Assembly: GCA_030619885.1 (NCBI GenBank)
Contig: JAUXAN010000019.1
Location: forward strand, 1 to 41,528
Origin: a bacterium
GTDB taxonomy: Bacteria > Hydrothermota > DG-26 > JAUXAN01
Direction of reading: 5' to 3'
DNA length: 41,528 nt
Shown: positions 29,399 through 37,938 of the stretch, in pieces
Position numbering within the stretch: the first letter of the stretch is position 1
How the letters are laid out: each line of letters opens with the position of its first letter
Notes under the pieces: generated by a model
What the model saw: only the letters and a program-made list of their open reading frames with translations
Told to the model about the DNA's origin: nothing
The model's database searches: none
Position numbers and translations under genes: made by a program

Positions 29399-32300
29399 AT
29401 GGTTAAAAAAAACCTTTCTCACTATAAACTTTTGAAAAAATTGGGCCGAGGGGGGATGGCCACAGTCTATAAGGCAGTAGACCTCACCAGCCAAAGACCT
29501 GTAGCACTGAAAGTGCTCTTCCCTCAGCTCTCATCTGATGAAATTACTCGCACACGGTTCCTCAGAGAAGCCAGAGCAGGGATGGAGCTGGATCACCCTG
29601 GAATTGTCAAAGTGTATGAGGTGGGAGAAGAGAAGAAGCAATCCTTTATTGCGATGGAATTGGTGGAGGGAAAAACCCTGTATGAGATGATACGAGAAGA
29701 GCCTCTTGATATGGAGAGAGTCATTGATATCGGACTCGAAATTGCAGATGCTCTGGCTGCTGCTCATGAGAGAGGAATCATCCACCGCGACATAAAACCC
29801 CAGAATGTCATGGTGAGTAATGGCACCGTTAAGGTTATGGACTTTGGATTGGTGAGAATGATGGATGCTTCCACTTTGACTGAGAAGTATGAGATCGTCG
29901 GCACGCTCTCTTATATGTCTCCCCAGCAGGCGATTGGTGCTCAGATTGATGAACGGAGTGACATCTTCTCGCTGGGTGTGGTGCTCTATCAACTACTCAC
30001 AGGTACCCTTCCTTTTGAGGGAGATCATCCGGGTGCGATTATCCATTCGATACTCCATTCTGATCCGCTGAGAATGGAGGAATTGAGAAAAGGAATACCT
30101 GTTGAGGTGGAGCAGGTTGTGTTCAAAGCTATTCAGAAGAAGCCTCAGGAGCGGTATCAGAGTGCAGTGGAATTCAAATCGGATCTGGAAAGGGTGAGAG
30201 AGATTCTGAAAGGAAAGCCCCACACGCTCATTGCCACCGAGGAGGTATTTGAGGAGCGGGCTCGAGGGATCTACTCTGCCTTGGCTGGACGGGAGCGGGA
30301 ACTAGAAATCCTGGAGGGTCATTTAGAACGGATGCTGAAAGGAGAGGGCTCAATGATCCTGGTGAGAGGAGAGGCAGGGATTGGCAAGTCTCGGCTTGTG
30401 TGGGAACTGGGGAGGAAAGCGAAAAGAGAGAAGGCCCGGTATTTTTTAGGTAGATGTGTCTTCGGAAAGGAAGGACTCCCTTACCAACCTATTCTTGAGG
30501 TCATTCGCTCCTATCTTGAGCTCAAGGGAGTGAGAGACACTGGAAGGCTCCATGATTTCATCAGGGAGAAGGTTCCTCATCTCACAGATAGGATGGGAGT
30601 TATCCAAACGTTTCTTTTTATGAAGGGAGAGAAGGGATCGTCATTGATCAACAAGGAGCAGCTCTGGGATACAGCTACGGAGCTTGTGAAAGTAATGTCT
30701 CAGGACAAACCCATACTGCTTCATCTTGACGATCTCCATTGGGCTGATCTCCCTACTTTGAACCTCCTTACCTACCTCTCGAGAAATACACGGGGAGAGA
30801 GGGTACTGATTGTAGGTACTTACAGACCAGAAGAGTTAGTAGAAGAGCCAGAAGAAAAGCCTCATCCTCTTCTATCAGCGCTGAAGAGAATGGGAAGAGA
30901 AGGGCTCTATAAAGAAATCAACCTGGAAAGGCTGGATGAGGAGAGAACTCAGAGCGTGATTCACTCAGTCTTCCCCCACTCTGATTTCCCTGAGAGCTTT
31001 GCCCATTTAATTTATGAGGAGACTGAGGGGAATCCCCTCTTTATCCTGGAAGTGTTGAAACTACTTCGAGATGAGGGAGTGATCAGTCAGGAAGATAGAG
31101 GATGGAGTCCAAGCGGTGATGTTGGGAAGGTAGATATTCCAGGCAGGGTGAATGATGTAATCATGAATCGGTTGGGGAGATTGAATCGTGAGGAGAGAAC
31201 CCTTGTAGATGTTGCCTCGGTGGAAGGGCGTTCTTTTCAATCTGACACCATCTGTCACTGTTTAGGACTCCCTCGGATGAAAGTACTGCTCAGCTTACAG
31301 GATTTGGAGCAATCTCATCATCTCATCCATGCCTCAGAGAGGGAGTACCATTTTGACCATGGTAAGATCAGGGAAGTCGCATACGACAATCTGATCCCGG
31401 AGCTGAAGAGAGAATATCACCGCCTCCTCGGAGAGTACTTCACGAAGAATTTTGGAGAAAAGGAAAAGTACGCGGGAAAGATCGCGCATCACTTGCTTGA
31501 AGCTGATGAAGAAAAAGAAGCACTCCCCTATCTTCTCAGGGCAGGAGAACATGCAAAGAATCTCTTTGCCAATGAGGAGGCGATTGGATATTTTGATAAG
31601 GGAATCGAACTGATAGATAAATACCTCGAACAGCATCCTACTCCAGATCTCCAGCGCACAAAGCTCACCCAGCTAAAAGGGAGGGTTGAAGTGAAAGCAT
31701 TGCTTGGTCGCTATGATGATGCTCGAGAGGACTATAAGAGCATAGAGAATCTTGCCAAGGGATTGGGAGACCGTAAGGAACAGGCCTATGGATTAAATGG
31801 ATTTGGGGCAACATCCAGGAGAAAAGGAGACTACGAGCTATCGCTCAACTACTACGAGCAGGCCCTGATAATTCAGAGGCAGATTGGAGACAAACTGGGT
31901 GAGAGTTCTACCCTCATTGGAATCGGACATGTCCATGAGAGCCGTGGAGACTATGAGCTATCGCTCAAATACTACGAGCAGGCCCTGGGAATTAAAAGGC
32001 AGATTGAGGACAAGCTGGGTGAGAGTTCTACCCTCATTGGAATTGGGAATGTCCATTGGAACCATGGAGACTACGAGCTATCGCTCAACTACTACGAGCG
32101 AGCCCTGAGGATTCGGAGGGAGTTGGAGGATAAGCTGGGTGAGAGTAATACTCTCTTTGGAATTGGGAACGTCCATTGGAACCGTGGAGACTACGAGCTA
32201 TCGCTCAACTACTACGAGCAGGCTCTGAGAATTAAAAGACAGATTGGGGACAAGCGGGGTGAGAGTGATACTCTCATTGGAATTGGGAACGTCCATGTGG

Positions 32301-33325
32301 ACCGTGGAGACTACGAGTTAGCACTCAGCTCCTACGAGCAATGCCTGAGGATTAAAAGACAGATTGGGGACAAGCGGCGTGAATCTATAGTCCTCGATAA
32401 TATTGGTTTCATTCATTGGAACCATGGGGACTACAAGCTATCGCTCAGCTACAACGAGCAAGCCCTAAGGATTCAGAGGCAGATTAGAGATAAGGACTCT
32501 GAGGGTAATACCCTTCATAACATCGGGCTCATTCATTGGAACCGTGGAGATTACGAGCTATCGCTCAGCTGCCTCGAGCAAGCCCTGAGGATTGTGAGGC
32601 AGATTGGGAATAAGCAGAGTCAATGGGAATCGCAGCACTATCTGTGCAAGCTTTGGTGGGATATGGGTGACACAGAGAAGTCATTAGAAAAACTTGAGGA
32701 GGCTAGGCGAATAGCTCAGGCAATTGGTACAAGGAAAATGAGTGTGCGGTCTCAAATTGATACAGGTCTAGCGAAGTTCCTCAGGGGTTTCTATGAAGAT
32801 GCTCATTTGGATATTCAAAAGGGCTTAAAAATAGCTAGGGAGATGAAGGAAATAGATGCAATTATCGAAGGACTTGTAGTTGCTGCCAGAATTGAAATTG
32901 TAAGGGGGAACGGTCTCAAGGCCAGCCAGTATGCAGAGGAAGCGCTCAGTCTGGCTATGGATAAGGGAAGGAAGTTTGACATAGCTCAGGCGCATCTCCT
33001 ACTTGCCTGTATCCATTTATCAAAGCGAGATCTGCAGGATGCAGAATCCTATGCCAGCCAGGCTCAGAAAATTTCCGAGTCCTGCGGGATGAAGGAACTT
33101 CTCCGGCAGGCTTACTATTATCTTGGTAAAGTCTATTACAAGAAGAAACAATATTCCCTGGCACAGGAGGAATTAAGAAAAGCTGAAGAGGTAGTTAACA
33201 AGATTTTATCGAATCTTGGTGAAGAATTGAGAAAAATTTATATAGCAAAAACAGAGACCAAAGAAATTTACAAAAATCTGAAAATCATCAAGAAAAGCAA
33301 ATCTAAAGGAAGGAGGAAGTCGTGA
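29399..33325 (+). CDS. Serine/threonine kinase-AAA ATPase-TPR signalling protein
   Basis: The 1308-residue protein has three parts. Residues 8-268 are a Hanks kinase with Lys38, HRD at 129-131 and DFG at 148-150; the third glycine of the loop is Ala21, and S-P-E reads S-P-Q (174-176). Residues 296-560 are a STAND/AAA_16-type ATPase with Walker A GEAGIGKS (324-331) and Walker B LLHLDD (440-445). Residues from about 690 to 1280 are TPRs, with seven 40-residue units that are near-identical in DNA. Such proteins sense a ligand through ATPase and TPR and then signal. It has no strong ribosome site and is coupled by a 4-bp overlap to a sigma-54 activator. Confidence 0.92.
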   Translation: MVKKNLSHYKLLKKLGRGGMATVYKAVDLTSQRPVALKVLFPQLSSDEITRTRFLREARAGMELDHPGIVKVYEVGEEKKQSFIAMELVEGKTLYEMIREEPLDMERVIDIGLEIADALAAAHERGIIHRDIKPQNVMVSNGTVKVMDFGLVRMMDASTLTEKYEIVGTLSYMSPQQAIGAQIDERSDIFSLGVVLYQLLTGTLPFEGDHPGAIIHSILHSDPLRMEELRKGIPVEVEQVVFKAIQKKPQERYQSAVEFKSDLERVREILKGKPHTLIATEEVFEERARGIYSALAGRERELEILEGHLERMLKGEGSMILVRGEAGIGKSRLVWELGRKAKREKARYFLGRCVFGKEGLPYQPILEVIRSYLELKGVRDTGRLHDFIREKVPHLTDRMGVIQTFLFMKGEKGSSLINKEQLWDTATELVKVMSQDKPILLHLDDLHWADLPTLNLLTYLSRNTRGERVLIVGTYRPEELVEEPEEKPHPLLSALKRMGREGLYKEINLERLDEERTQSVIHSVFPHSDFPESFAHLIYEETEGNPLFILEVLKLLRDEGVISQEDRGWSPSGDVGKVDIPGRVNDVIMNRLGRLNREERTLVDVASVEGRSFQSDTICHCLGLPRMKVLLSLQDLEQSHHLIHASEREYHFDHGKIREVAYDNLIPELKREYHRLLGEYFTKNFGEKEKYAGKIAHHLLEADEEKEALPYLLRAGEHAKNLFANEEAIGYFDKGIELIDKYLEQHPTPDLQRTKLTQLKGRVEVKALLGRYDDAREDYKSIENLAKGLGDRKEQAYGLNGFGATSRRKGDYELSLNYYEQALIIQRQIGDKLGESSTLIGIGHVHESRGDYELSLKYYEQALGIKRQIEDKLGESSTLIGIGNVHWNHGDYELSLNYYERALRIRRELEDKLGESNTLFGIGNVHWNRGDYELSLNYYEQALRIKRQIGDKRGESDTLIGIGNVHVDRGDYELALSSYEQCLRIKRQIGDKRRESIVLDNIGFIHWNHGDYKLSLSYNEQALRIQRQIRDKDSEGNTLHNIGLIHWNRGDYELSLSCLEQALRIVRQIGNKQSQWESQHYLCKLWWDMGDTEKSLEKLEEARRIAQAIGTRKMSVRSQIDTGLAKFLRGFYEDAHLDIQKGLKIAREMKEIDAIIEGLVVAARIEIVRGNGLKASQYAEEALSLAMDKGRKFDIAQAHLLLACIHLSKRDLQDAESYASQAQKISESCGMKELLRQAYYYLGKVYYKKKQYSLAQEELRKAEEVVNKILSNLGEELRKIYIAKTETKEIYKNLKIIKKSKSKGRRKS
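31831..32670 (+). repeat. Seven in-phase 120-bp tandem repeats within the kinase gene
   Basis: Units beginning CTACGAGCTATCGCTCAA occur at 31831, 31951, 32071, 32191, 32311, 32431 and 32551, exactly 120 bp apart. Each codes for one 40-residue TPR. The first four to five are the most alike, which points to recent expansion and probable copy-number variation among strains. Confidence 0.9.
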
Positions 33326-34878
33326 AAAATTTTATTGCCGACTCCGGACATACTCGGGGTAGCGACTCAGAGTTAACCCTTCCTCACGATCGATTGATGG
33401 ACCTCTTCCTATTTAGACAGAGGGTCAATCAGATCACTGAGGTAAAGACACTTCTCGATGAGATTCTCCATTCTGCTATCACCATCATTGGTGCCGAGAG
33501 AGGGATGATTATTCTCACCGATGAATCGGGTGAAGGCTACCGAACTGTGGCTTCTGAATCCCTCGAGAAAGAGGATATTGCCTTCAGCACCAGCATTGTT
33601 AAGGCAACCCTGGAGAGCAAGAAGTTACTTATGAGTACGGACCTCCGGTTGGACTCACGATTTAAAGATGCCGAAAGTGTCAGAGGACTGAACATTCTCT
33701 CTTTCATTTGCGTTCCTCTCATTGTACCAGGGTGGAGTAGTGCATTGGGTACCCTATATGTCGACCAACGAATCTATGTAAAGACCTTTACTCAGGAAGA
33801 TGCTGCCTTTCTCGAAGCTTTTGCCAACCTGGCTGCTATTGATATCAGTAATGCGAATCTGATGGAAGGGTTAGTAAGCGAGAATATCCAACTGCGTGAG
33901 GAAGTAGAGAAGAAATATGAATTTCCCGGAGTAATCGGTCAGAGCAAAGCTATGCAGAAGGTCTTCCGGGAGATGAAGCAAATCCTGAACGATGATTGCA
34001 CAGTTCTCGTTACTGGAGAGTCCGGGAGCGGGAAGGAAGTGATCGCCAAGGCGATCCATTACAATGGAAACAGAAAGGAGAGACCGTTCCTGGCAATCAA
34101 CTGTGGAGCCCTGCCCGAGACACTCCTGGAGGCTGAGCTTTTCGGTAGCGTTAGAGGGGCTTTTACAGGTGCCTTAGACAAGCAAGGGCTCTTTCAGGCT
34201 GCTCACGATGGTACCCTCTTTTTGGATGAGATTCATCACACAAGTGAAGCAATGCAAATCAAGTTGCTTCGGGTTCTCCAGGAGAAGGAAATCAGAAGGG
34301 TAGGGGGAACGAAAACTATCAAGGTCAATGTTCGATTGATTTGTGCGACCAACGAAGACTTACGAAAAACAATCCAGGAAGGACGTCTCCGTCAGGATTT
34401 TTACTATCGCATCAATGTGGTGACGATAGATGTACCCTCTTTGAGGGATCGTCGAGAAGACATTCCAGTGTTGGCACATCATTTTCTGGAAAAGTATACC
34501 AAGGAAAAGGGAAAGCATTTTCGTGGATTCCATAAGGGGGCGTTGGACGCATTGATGAACTACGATTGGGCTGAAAACAATGTAAGAGAATTAGAAAATG
34601 AGATTGAACGTGCGGTTATCTTTGCCAGGGACGGAAGTGCAATTAAGACCAAAGACTTGTCCGAAAAGCTCAGAAGTGGCGTGCCTATTACCAGAGAGGT
34701 AAGTGTTGACCTCTTCACTGATGAGGGGCGGCCATTAACCTGTAAAGAATTCGAGAAGAAGTACATCCATTTCATTCTTTCTCAGGTGGCTGGCAACAAA
34801 GCCAAAGCAGCCCAGATGATGGGCATCCCTCGCTCAACACTCAGGGGGAAGATGAGAAAGTTGGGCTTGAGTGATTAG
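33322..34878 (+). CDS. GAF-domain sigma-54-dependent transcriptional activator (enhancer-binding protein)
   Basis: The 518-residue protein starts with GTG overlapping the kinase stop (GTGA). Residues 25-180 are a GAF sensory domain. Residues 202-425 are the sigma-54 activator AAA domain, with Walker A GESGSGKE (232-239), the sigma-54 contact motif GAFTGA at 279-284 and Walker B LFLDE (299-303). The C-terminal helix-turn-helix (about 470-515, NKAKAAQMMGIPRSTLRGKM) is Fis-type. There is no response-regulator receiver domain; input most likely comes from the coupled kinase or a GAF ligand. Two palindromes and a sigma-54 promoter directly downstream are its likely target. Confidence 0.95.
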   Translation: MKNFIADSGHTRGSDSELTLPHDRLMDLFLFRQRVNQITEVKTLLDEILHSAITIIGAERGMIILTDESGEGYRTVASESLEKEDIAFSTSIVKATLESKKLLMSTDLRLDSRFKDAESVRGLNILSFICVPLIVPGWSSALGTLYVDQRIYVKTFTQEDAAFLEAFANLAAIDISNANLMEGLVSENIQLREEVEKKYEFPGVIGQSKAMQKVFREMKQILNDDCTVLVTGESGSGKEVIAKAIHYNGNRKERPFLAINCGALPETLLEAELFGSVRGAFTGALDKQGLFQAAHDGTLFLDEIHHTSEAMQIKLLRVLQEKEIRRVGGTKTIKVNVRLICATNEDLRKTIQEGRLRQDFYYRINVVTIDVPSLRDRREDIPVLAHHFLEKYTKEKGKHFRGFHKGALDALMNYDWAENNVRELENEIERAVIFARDGSAIKTKDLSEKLRSGVPITREVSVDLFTDEGRPLTCKEFEKKYIHFILSQVAGNKAKAAQMMGIPRSTLRGKMRKLGLSD

Positions 34879-34912: not shown

Positions 34913-34967
34913 ATCCATAGGTAGTCCTTATACATAAACAACTTAATTCCTTTCCACAGGTTCAAGA

Positions 34968-34981
34968 GGTCATATTTGACC
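34968..34981. promoter_or_regulatory. Upstream palindrome site 2 for the sigma-54 activator
   Basis: GGTCATATTTGACC is an inverted repeat (GGTCA/TGACC around TATT). It lies about 100 bp upstream of the sigma-54 promoter. The two sites are 69 bp apart centre to centre. Confidence 0.6.
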
Positions 34982-35068
34982 TTTTTTCACTTTCATGGGG
35001 TTGACTCCAGTTAGGCCTATTTCTCATAAAGCTTTGTATTTTAAGTATTTATGAAGATTCGACTGCGA

Positions 35069-35083
35069 TGGCATGATTCTTGC
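35069..35083 (+). promoter_or_regulatory. Sigma-54 promoter (GG-N10-GC)
   Basis: TGGCATGATTCTTGC has GG at 35070-35071 and GC at 35082-35083 with exactly 10 bases between, close to the TGGCAC-N5-TTGC consensus. It lies about 85 bp before the ATG of the repeat peptide gene at 35169, just after the gene for a sigma-54 activator. Confidence 0.8.
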
Positions 35084-35168
35084 CCTATATTAGGGTATGA
35101 AAGCAAATCAGAAAGAGAGATGGGAAGGAAGTCATTATTTAAATTTAATTAAAAAGGAGGGATAAAAA

Positions 35169-35465
35169 ATGAGAAAGGGAATAGTTCTTGAAAGGTCATT
35201 TGAGGAAGTGTCGACTAAATTGAGTAAAATCAAAAAAGAAAAAGACCTCAAACCAGAAATAGGATCAAAAAAGGGAATAGTTCTTGAAAGGCTATTAGAG
35301 GAAGTATCGATTAGCTTGCCAAAAATCAAGAACGAAAAAAACTTCAATCCAGAAGGAGGATCAAAAATGAATACAACTCGGAATAAGAGAACAAGATTGA
35401 GTTTCGATAGGCCATCGCCATATCCTTTGCCTAAGGGACTCTTAATAGGATTCTATGGCAAATAA
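35169..35465 (+). CDS. Small protein of 32-residue repeat units, probable target of the sigma-54 promoter
   Basis: The 98-residue protein has an AAAGGAGGG ribosome site. Residues 3-34 and 35-66 are tandem repeats sharing K-G-I-V-L-E-R, E-E-V-S, K-I-K, E-K, P-E and G-S-K. The last 32 residues (67-98) differ and start with Met67. That Met is preceded by AAGGAGG at proper spacing (35353-35359), so a separate 32-residue peptide may also be made from 35367. The tail is basic and proline-containing (SFDRPSPYPLPKG), ending GFYGK. No family is recognised. It could be a secreted or modified peptide or a regulator. No modification enzyme is adjacent. Confidence 0.7.
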   Translation: MRKGIVLERSFEEVSTKLSKIKKEKDLKPEIGSKKGIVLERLLEEVSISLPKIKNEKNFNPEGGSKMNTTRNKRTRLSFDRPSPYPLPKGLLIGFYGK

Positions 35466-35483: not shown

Positions 35484-35541
35484 AAAATGGGGACGGTTCC
35501 CTTTTTTAAAAGGTAGCAGAAATCAGAACCATCCCCATTTT
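35484..35541. repeat. GGGGAC-type inverted repeat, possibly also a terminator
   Basis: AAAATGGGGACGGTTC (35484-35499) pairs with GAACCATCCCCATTTT (35526-35541) with one mismatch. The right arm runs into TTTTTATT on the plus strand, so it could stop transcription of the peptide gene. The outer GGGGAC resembles the ends of the Y1 transposase element. Confidence 0.7.
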
Positions 35542-35826: not shown

Positions 35827-37938
35827 ATGGGTTTTTTATTATTGCTTTTGCTTACAATGAACAATGAGAAAGCTGTAGAGGTGCTTTTTACAGAAATTGC
35901 GCCTAAAATTGATGGGGTAATTGAAGAAGTCTGGCAGCAGGCAGATTCAGCCTATGATTTTGTCCAACACCTGCCATATGAAAAGACAGAGCCTACGGAA
36001 AAAACTGTGGTCTATGTGTTGCAAGATAAAGACAACCTCTATTTTGCATTCCGCTGTTATTCACAAAAGCATAAACCAATTGCCAATTTTACAAAAGACG
36101 AAGATTATGTTATAGTCAGAATTGACCCGTTTGGAAGTAAAACTACGGGATATTATTTTACGGTATTCGGAAGTAAGTTATTTCGGGATGGTTGGATACT
36201 TGATGACGGCCGCACTGAGGATGATTCCTGGGAGGGCGTGTGTTATCGGGCTATAAAATTGTATGATGATCGTTTCGAAGTGGAAATAAGGATTCCGTTC
36301 AAATCAATCCGGTATAAGAAAGACCTTGACAAGTGGGGTGTACAATTTATGCGACACATTGCCTTCAAGCGAGAGGATGACTACTGGACTGATGTCTTAC
36401 AGCAAGAAGGTGACTTGGTTTCAAAATGGGGCTCATTAACAGGTATAAATCCTCAGGCTACAGGCTACTATTTCGAATTATACCCTGAAGGATATGTGAG
36501 ATATGATAAAGACGAAGTGCAAGATACCACTGAATTCAAACCAAGTCTGAGCTTGAATTTCAAATGGGATGTAACACCCCAGGCAACCCTCAATGCAACT
36601 GTATATCCAGACTTTGCCCAGATTGAATCTGACCCGTTTACTTTAAATTTAGACCGCTACCCAGTATATTTGGATGAGCGGAGACCATTTTTTCTTGAAG
36701 GTAAAGATATTTTTCGTCTCTCTGATTTTGGTCCTCACGAAGGTTTTTTCCAAGAATTAGACATTTTCTATTCCCGCAGGATGGGTAAGTCGATGAATGG
36801 TGATGCAGTGCCTATCATTAGCGGACTAAAATTGACCAACAAATCAGAGAACTGGAACATGGGTATACTCGGTGCTTATACGGATGAATATGCTGAAGAT
36901 GATATGATAATTGAGTCCCGCAGATGGTTTAGTGCAATGAGGGCAAAGCACCGGGTATTTGAAACTTCAGATATCGGCATGCTCTTCAGCGGAACAATGG
37001 TAGATAGAGATGACTACAACTATTCGTTTGGGCTTGATGGAGTATATCGTAAAGGGGCTAGCCAACTTATTGTTCAAGGTGCATTGAGTGATAAGAATGA
37101 GAAAAGAGGCTGGGCGATATCTTCTGGATATAAAGGTTTTATGGGGAATTTTCTTACGAGGGCCACAGTTGGTGTTGTGAACGATTCTTTTGATGTTGGG
37201 GACATAGGCTTTGTCCCCTGGGCCGGAATAAAGAGGTTTAACATTTCCAGCGGTCCTTATAAGACATATCCTAAAGGTTTCCTTAGAGACCTGTATATCG
37301 CCCCGGGCATTTATGTTATCCAGGAGCCGGGTGATACAAACTGGTCAAAATTAGGTACCATAGATATTAACCCCAATTTTCGTAATAACTGGGGTCTATA
37401 TCTTTCAGCTACGGCTGGCCCTTATTATGAGGCGGATACAAATTACTTTCATCGCAGTGTTAATCTTAACATATGGGGCACGCTTTACGGTAACTTCTTA
37501 TTTTTTTGGTGTAATTATTCTTATTCGCACAATTACTTTCGTGAATTCTTGGCTTACCAAGCTGCACATTCTTTGTCATTCAACTATTCAATAATACAAC
37601 AGATGAGGGTAGGTTTTGATTCTAATCTATGGATTGAGTGGGATACGCTCAACACGATTATTGCGATTACGCCACGATTCAGACCAAAGGTCGAATTCAT
37701 ATTCAATGCCGACATGAATTTGAGTGTTTTCAGTCAATTTGTTATGGAAACACCAGGTACAGATTTTGGCGAGACTGATCTGAATTCAGTTCGAACAGGT
37801 CTGCTCTTTTCCTGGAACTTCTTGCCCAAGTCCTGGCTCTATATTGCATTGAATGATTATCGTGAACAAAAAGAAGGTAAAATACAACCCGTGTACCACA
37901 TTGGTGCAATCAAGGCAAAGTATCTAATCTACTTCTAA
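35827..37938 (+). CDS. DUF5916-like outer-membrane protein with N-terminal CBM9-like domain
   Basis: The 703-residue protein has a short hydrophobic N-terminus (MGFLLLLLLT), perhaps a signal peptide with the true start slightly different. Residues 20-200 (KIDGVIEEVWQQAD, L-Y-F-A-F-R-C-Y) are like the CBM9-type domain seen in this family. Then comes the DUF5916 hallmark, N-A-T-V-Y-P-D-F-A-Q-I-E-S-D-P, and D-E-R-R-P-F-F-L-E-G near residue 290. The rest is a beta-barrel-like region ending in Phe. The family is widespread in Bacteroidota and relatives; its role is unknown. The ribosome site is AAAGGAGGA. Confidence 0.82.
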   Translation: MGFLLLLLLTMNNEKAVEVLFTEIAPKIDGVIEEVWQQADSAYDFVQHLPYEKTEPTEKTVVYVLQDKDNLYFAFRCYSQKHKPIANFTKDEDYVIVRIDPFGSKTTGYYFTVFGSKLFRDGWILDDGRTEDDSWEGVCYRAIKLYDDRFEVEIRIPFKSIRYKKDLDKWGVQFMRHIAFKREDDYWTDVLQQEGDLVSKWGSLTGINPQATGYYFELYPEGYVRYDKDEVQDTTEFKPSLSLNFKWDVTPQATLNATVYPDFAQIESDPFTLNLDRYPVYLDERRPFFLEGKDIFRLSDFGPHEGFFQELDIFYSRRMGKSMNGDAVPIISGLKLTNKSENWNMGILGAYTDEYAEDDMIIESRRWFSAMRAKHRVFETSDIGMLFSGTMVDRDDYNYSFGLDGVYRKGASQLIVQGALSDKNEKRGWAISSGYKGFMGNFLTRATVGVVNDSFDVGDIGFVPWAGIKRFNISSGPYKTYPKGFLRDLYIAPGIYVIQEPGDTNWSKLGTIDINPNFRNNWGLYLSATAGPYYEADTNYFHRSVNLNIWGTLYGNFLFFWCNYSYSHNYFREFLAYQAAHSLSFNYSIIQQMRVGFDSNLWIEWDTLNTIIAITPRFRPKVEFIFNADMNLSVFSQFVMETPGTDFGETDLNSVRTGLLFSWNFLPKSWLYIALNDYREQKEGKIQPVYHIGAIKAKYLIYF

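Follow-up and report, generated by a model that had tools for sequence, protein, structure and literature searches.

The closest described systems to the locus analyzed here are small bacterial proteins whose genes have a further start in frame with the first. In these systems one gene has two starts, and a long and a short product are predicted. The AerR isoforms are an example of N-terminal proteoforms that arise from an internal in-frame start (PMC6199135), and small bacterial proteins and N-terminal proteoforms are covered by a riboproteogenomic survey (PMC11005335). A likeness of another sort is offered by MITEs, REP sequences and Rickettsia palindromic elements, dispersed bacterial repeats (reviewed in PMC10969869) which, like the family described below, are multicopy, include near-identical pairs and have copies abutting gene ends. 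Double-glycine leader/C39 systems likewise have a GG just before a conserved C-terminal segment.

Within the window (the whole 41,528-nucleotide stretch of DNA that was analyzed), the open reading frame and its translation confirmed a 98-residue ORF, whose parts and neighbors are listed in Table 1. Judged from comparative sequence analysis, the gene appears to have two products, a long protein and a short basic peptide made from an internal start. We do not see in it a clear case of a new type of system; it is ordinary in kind and new as a family. With the internal-start proteins described so far no sequence relation is expected, and the locus differs from them in that its short form can be a free-standing gene and in that its upstream segment is duplicated. 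We consider it rather probable that the locus is a two-start small-protein cassette of WOR-3 genomes, in which a leader ending in xPEGGSK is joined to a conserved basic core, the short form would be the functional unit and expression would be under sigma-54-type control. In each full gene, an N-terminal segment of ∼32 residues with this ending is followed by a C-terminal peptide that is conserved, basic and contains proline (M...RNKRxxLSFxRPSPYPLPxGLLIGFW). The PEGGSK codons hold a second ribosome-binding site, so that the mRNA would give both the long protein and the short core peptide. The latter would most likely be a cytoplasmic regulatory or effector peptide, with the leader modulating its amount or form.

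Table 1. Features of the peptide locus and its surroundings, in window coordinates
Feature	Position	Strand	Basis
Upstream regulator, a Ser/Thr protein kinase that carries AAA_16 ATPase and TPR repeats	29399..33325	+	Pfam Pkinase 6.9e-51, AAA_16 6.4e-24, TPR
GAF / sigma-54 interaction / Fis-type HTH activator	33322..34878	+	Pfam Sigma54_activat 2.5e-68, GAF, HTH_8
Terminator-like hairpin between activator gene and peptide gene	34964..34985	+	Pattern scan, consensus match only
Sigma-54 (-24/-12) promoter-like site TGGCATGATTCTTGC	35069..35083	+	1 mismatch
Shine-Dalgarno sequence AAGGAGGG of the long form	35154..35161	+	Sequence; pairing -13.1 kcal/mol
98-residue ORF, predicted long form	35169..35465	+	Aligned with relatives
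Leader unit 1 (residues 3-34), additional copy seen at the window locus only	35175..35270	+	Profile match 8.1e-17
Leader unit 2 (residues 35-66), corresponding to the one leader of C73, G036 and G046	35271..35366	+	Repeat comparison, alignment, leader profile
Internal Shine-Dalgarno sequence AAGGAGG	35353..35359	+	Anti-Shine-Dalgarno pairing
Conserved core / predicted short form (Met67 to Lys98), shared by every family member	35367..35465	+	Family searches, codon test, alignment
Hairpin built of dispersed GGGGACGGTTC repeat; part at 35489-35507 terminator-like	35484..35541	+	Repeat count, pattern scan
DUF5916 / CBM9-like protein gene, next downstream, probably separate transcript	35827..37938	+	Pfam DUF5916 1.1e-18

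The upstream part of the gene consists of two gapless, in-frame direct repeats (35174-35269 and 35270-35365) that are 82% identical over 96 nt, and we thus read residues 3-34 and 35-66 as a tandem duplication of the leader. The local alignment score of the two protein segments is 99, against 22 on average for shuffled sequences (z = 18), in agreement with the first-pass annotation, where they had been taken as clear repeats. That annotation had also counted the tail as a third unit and had considered a multidomain scaffold. The tail is indeed exactly 32 residues long, but residues 67-98 align to units 1 and 2 with a score of only 16, the level of shuffled sequences (p = 0.47 and 0.57), which rules out a third unit and with it a three-unit repeat protein. 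The equal length is, to judge by these alignments, a coincidence; two leader units and one unrelated conserved tail do not make a scaffold of repeated domains.

The AAGGAGG that had been pointed out before lies 7 nt ahead of the Met67 ATG (35367). Its pairing energy of -12.6 kcal/mol, computed against a generic bacterial anti-Shine-Dalgarno sequence that may differ from the host's own 16S end, is reached by about 0.2% of 491 internal in-frame methionines in long ORFs of the genome's loci. Shine-Dalgarno matches of at least 7 nt precede 3 of 599 internal methionines and 18 of 84 real starts. The start site is moreover predicted to be nearly unstructured. Where unit 1 meets unit 2, no Shine-Dalgarno sequence and no ATG are present (AAATAGG, AAG; -5.4 kcal/mol), and the internal start is therefore found only before the tail. 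Both ATG and Shine-Dalgarno sequence are kept in all five family copies that have an upstream segment, and in the distant copies of genomes G036 and G046 the pairing at the equivalent of Met67 is still -11.7 kcal/mol, the sequence having changed by wobble. The internal start thus appears well supported, with an in-frame, strong and properly spaced Shine-Dalgarno sequence that is kept in relatives. The earlier suggestion that one gene may give a long form and a short basic peptide gains further support from one relative that has the short form alone (C38) and another that keeps only the internal start (C60). The short form would be basic (computed charge about +5.5, pI 11.1).

The window protein matches five further places in its own 2.46-Mb genome. 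In total, we found eight loci of the family in three genomes of WOR-3, a bacterial candidate phylum: six in the window genome, one in G036 and one in G046. Counting units in these relatives, a check that had been proposed with the three-unit reading, gave two units in the window gene only and three in none. One leader and the tail make up the copy on contig C73 of the window genome (65 residues) and those in G036 and G046 (69 residues), which stand immediately behind a TetR-type gene and have a diverged leader N terminus, with KSKNE+NxNxEGGSK shared. At C60 (25.9 kb), homology starts just past the stop codon of a methyltransferase gene, and there is no leader start, with core and Shine-Dalgarno sequence intact. 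The C38 copy is a leaderless tail of 30 residues with its own Shine-Dalgarno sequence, starting at the ATG equivalent to Met67; this ATG and the end of a membrane-protein gene overlap. Since the anatomy of the copies varies in this way, the tail can be regarded as the constant part of the family and its ATG as the start codon of any copy without a leader. Contigs C11 and C60 each start with a further copy, made up of tail and hairpin; because both contigs begin with the same 141 bases, the left part of these copies is unread. These shared bases probably reflect an assembly break of k-mer length inside a repeat carrying core and hairpin. The hairpin stands behind the C11-start, C60-start and C38 copies and nowhere else in the window genome.

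Searches of 147 genomes of the phylum with a tail profile recovered no other members above noise, and a motif scan of 84,980 species found none elsewhere. The family is absent from G001 and G002, the nearest genomes in the comparison. Viral contigs, phages and plasmids contained no relatives, and an origin from any of these was rejected. Pfam, NCBIfam, PHROGs, PADLOC and PDB gave only sub-threshold chance matches to the peptide, and its motifs were not found in the literature text searched. There were weak profile matches in G008, G030, G032, G048, G082 and G096 and on contig C5 of the window genome (E values of 0.008 to 0.2); the ones that were read, which do not include G048, look like chance. 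Pairing of the leader with other cores was rejected as well, as a leader-only profile recovered just the same loci above noise. We regard the family as new, real and rapidly diverging, and, by these searches, as confined to WOR-3 as far as seen. It adds an unannotated group of small proteins with a very narrow range from a mostly uncultured phylum, and its duplicated, single, startless and absent leaders form a natural comparison set for internal initiation.

The main rival explanation, which we hold to be unlikely, is that of a dispersed DNA repeat, either miniature mobile or REP-like, whose copies spread by inserting or recombining at gene ends, one frame being open incidentally. Such an element would account for the six places in one genome, for the two contigs sharing their initial bases, as happens when a repeat breaks an assembly, for the truncation of the C60 copy right past another gene's stop codon and for the cassette-specific hairpin behind three copies. 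It would also fit the high DNA similarity across distant genomes and the dN values close to dS in several family pairs. That dS is low when distant genomes are compared suggests horizontal exchange or a recent spread. However, homology between the window and C73 copies stops at the stop codon and not at shared termini. Neither terminal inverted repeats nor a palindrome was found at the borders of the window cassette, folds are at shuffle level, and the core frame with its Shine-Dalgarno sequence and ATG is intact in all copies where the region is present. In contrast to MITEs, REP sequences and Rickettsia palindromic elements, the peptide family has its own ribosome sites and shows partial coding constraint, with a codon-level signal in the core and at the leader end.

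This constraint was assessed by a codon-substitution test against column shuffles, with few and related sequences. A signal was obtained for the core among the own-genome copies (z = 3.6, p = 0.001) and among three representatives (p = 0.0065), and also over the leader's final 45 nt in five copies (p = 0.002). No signal was seen for the core in cross-genus pairs alone (p = 0.27; few sequences) or for the leader among own-genome copies (p = 0.6), and units 1 and 2 show no codon-level constraint relative to each other, dN being about equal to dS. Codon-level conservation, whose absence across relatives had been named in the first-pass annotation as refuting its reading, is thus present in the tail and at the leader end and lacking in these other comparisons. 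The EGGSK stretch may be conserved only for the Shine-Dalgarno sequence carried within it. An RNA element was rejected: the RNAalifold covariation term was unfavorable, single folds were at shuffle level, and the sole Rfam match, a caiA one that overlaps the first start, lay below threshold.

The layout of the gene, with a GG ahead of the conserved tail and a duplicated leader, would also suit a RiPP or double-glycine precursor from which a secreted or modified peptide is released, with EGG as the cleavage site and the tail as the product. We consider this very unlikely, since the tails at C38 and C60 lack any leader start and the GG coincides with the Shine-Dalgarno sequence. Peptidase_C39 was not found in the window genome (G000) or in G046, and export by this route was rejected on that ground; one such peptidase is present in G036. 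Among the neighbors examined (kinase, activator, DUF5916 protein, TetR protein and aspartyl protease) there is no RiPP modification enzyme, consistent with the first-pass annotation, which had seen none nearby. Its proposal of leader-core units thus fits the layout, but not the missing modification and export machinery. The locus differs from double-glycine/C39 systems in that its GG lies within Shine-Dalgarno codons, and RiPP or double-glycine export is not supported. Structure prediction (pLDDT 58, pTM 0.19) gave two low-confidence leader helices and an unstructured tail, and was too poor to be used. Apidaecin and Bac7 are examples of proline-rich antimicrobial peptides. The core, likewise basic and with an RPSPYPLP-like stretch, resembles these in this respect only and differs from them in having just 4 prolines in 32 residues and a hydrophobic C terminus.

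Under the two-start cassette reading, the window gene, which adjoins the Ser/Thr kinase and sigma-54 activator pair, would stand behind its own sigma-54-type promoter, so that the peptide would probably be made on a signal received by the pair. By chance, the two strands of the whole window together should hold 0.55 matches to such a site, and RpoN is encoded in the window genome. Given its own promoter site and the terminator-like hairpins before and after it, the peptide gene is best read as monocistronic. Kinase orthologues in family f10 are 45 to 54% identical. An obligate partnership of the peptide with the kinase/activator pair was rejected, since other genes lie downstream of the orthologous pairs in G119, G107 and G113; the link between peptide and pair is therefore local. 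G113 likewise has a sigma-54-like site just past the activator gene, there ahead of a different target gene. A more far-reaching proposal, which we regard as quite improbable, is a signal-controlled system new to WOR-3, in which the pair would switch on the cassette, long and short products would have opposing or complementary roles in a ratio tuned by leader duplication, and copying of the short peptide to other places in the genome would have turned it into a free-standing effector. Provided that the short peptide is made and active, it would offer an easily tested effector under kinase/sigma-54 control.

Downstream of the stop codon, the window has a terminator-like hairpin ahead of the DUF5916 gene, and in G046 the next gene begins about 75 nt downstream. 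Both would be compatible with an attenuation or arrest leader peptide controlling the next gene. This we judge highly improbable, as different copies are followed by unrelated genes, conserved RNA structure was not found, and the window hairpin is a genome-wide repeat: the GGGGACGGTTC hairpin behind the peptide gene belongs to a dispersed repeat with 38 exact copies. The motif TGGGGACGGTTC, at 35488-35499, has 38 exact and 41 one-mismatch copies in the genome, compared to 6 for a reversed control; its copies are REP-like, often forming facing pairs (hairpins).

Relatives of the TetR gene of G036 and G046 were also observed in other WOR-3 genomes. At L069, L076, L077, L078, L084 and L085, short, apparently membrane-anchored proteins are encoded downstream, some of which repeat a 'LMPEVVVTAPRFEYEDDAWSG' unit with a copy number that differs between relatives. 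At L071 and L073, the same TetR type stands directly ahead of a DUF5916 gene resembling the one downstream in the window, and TetR, peptide and DUF5916 genes thus recur together in varying pairings.
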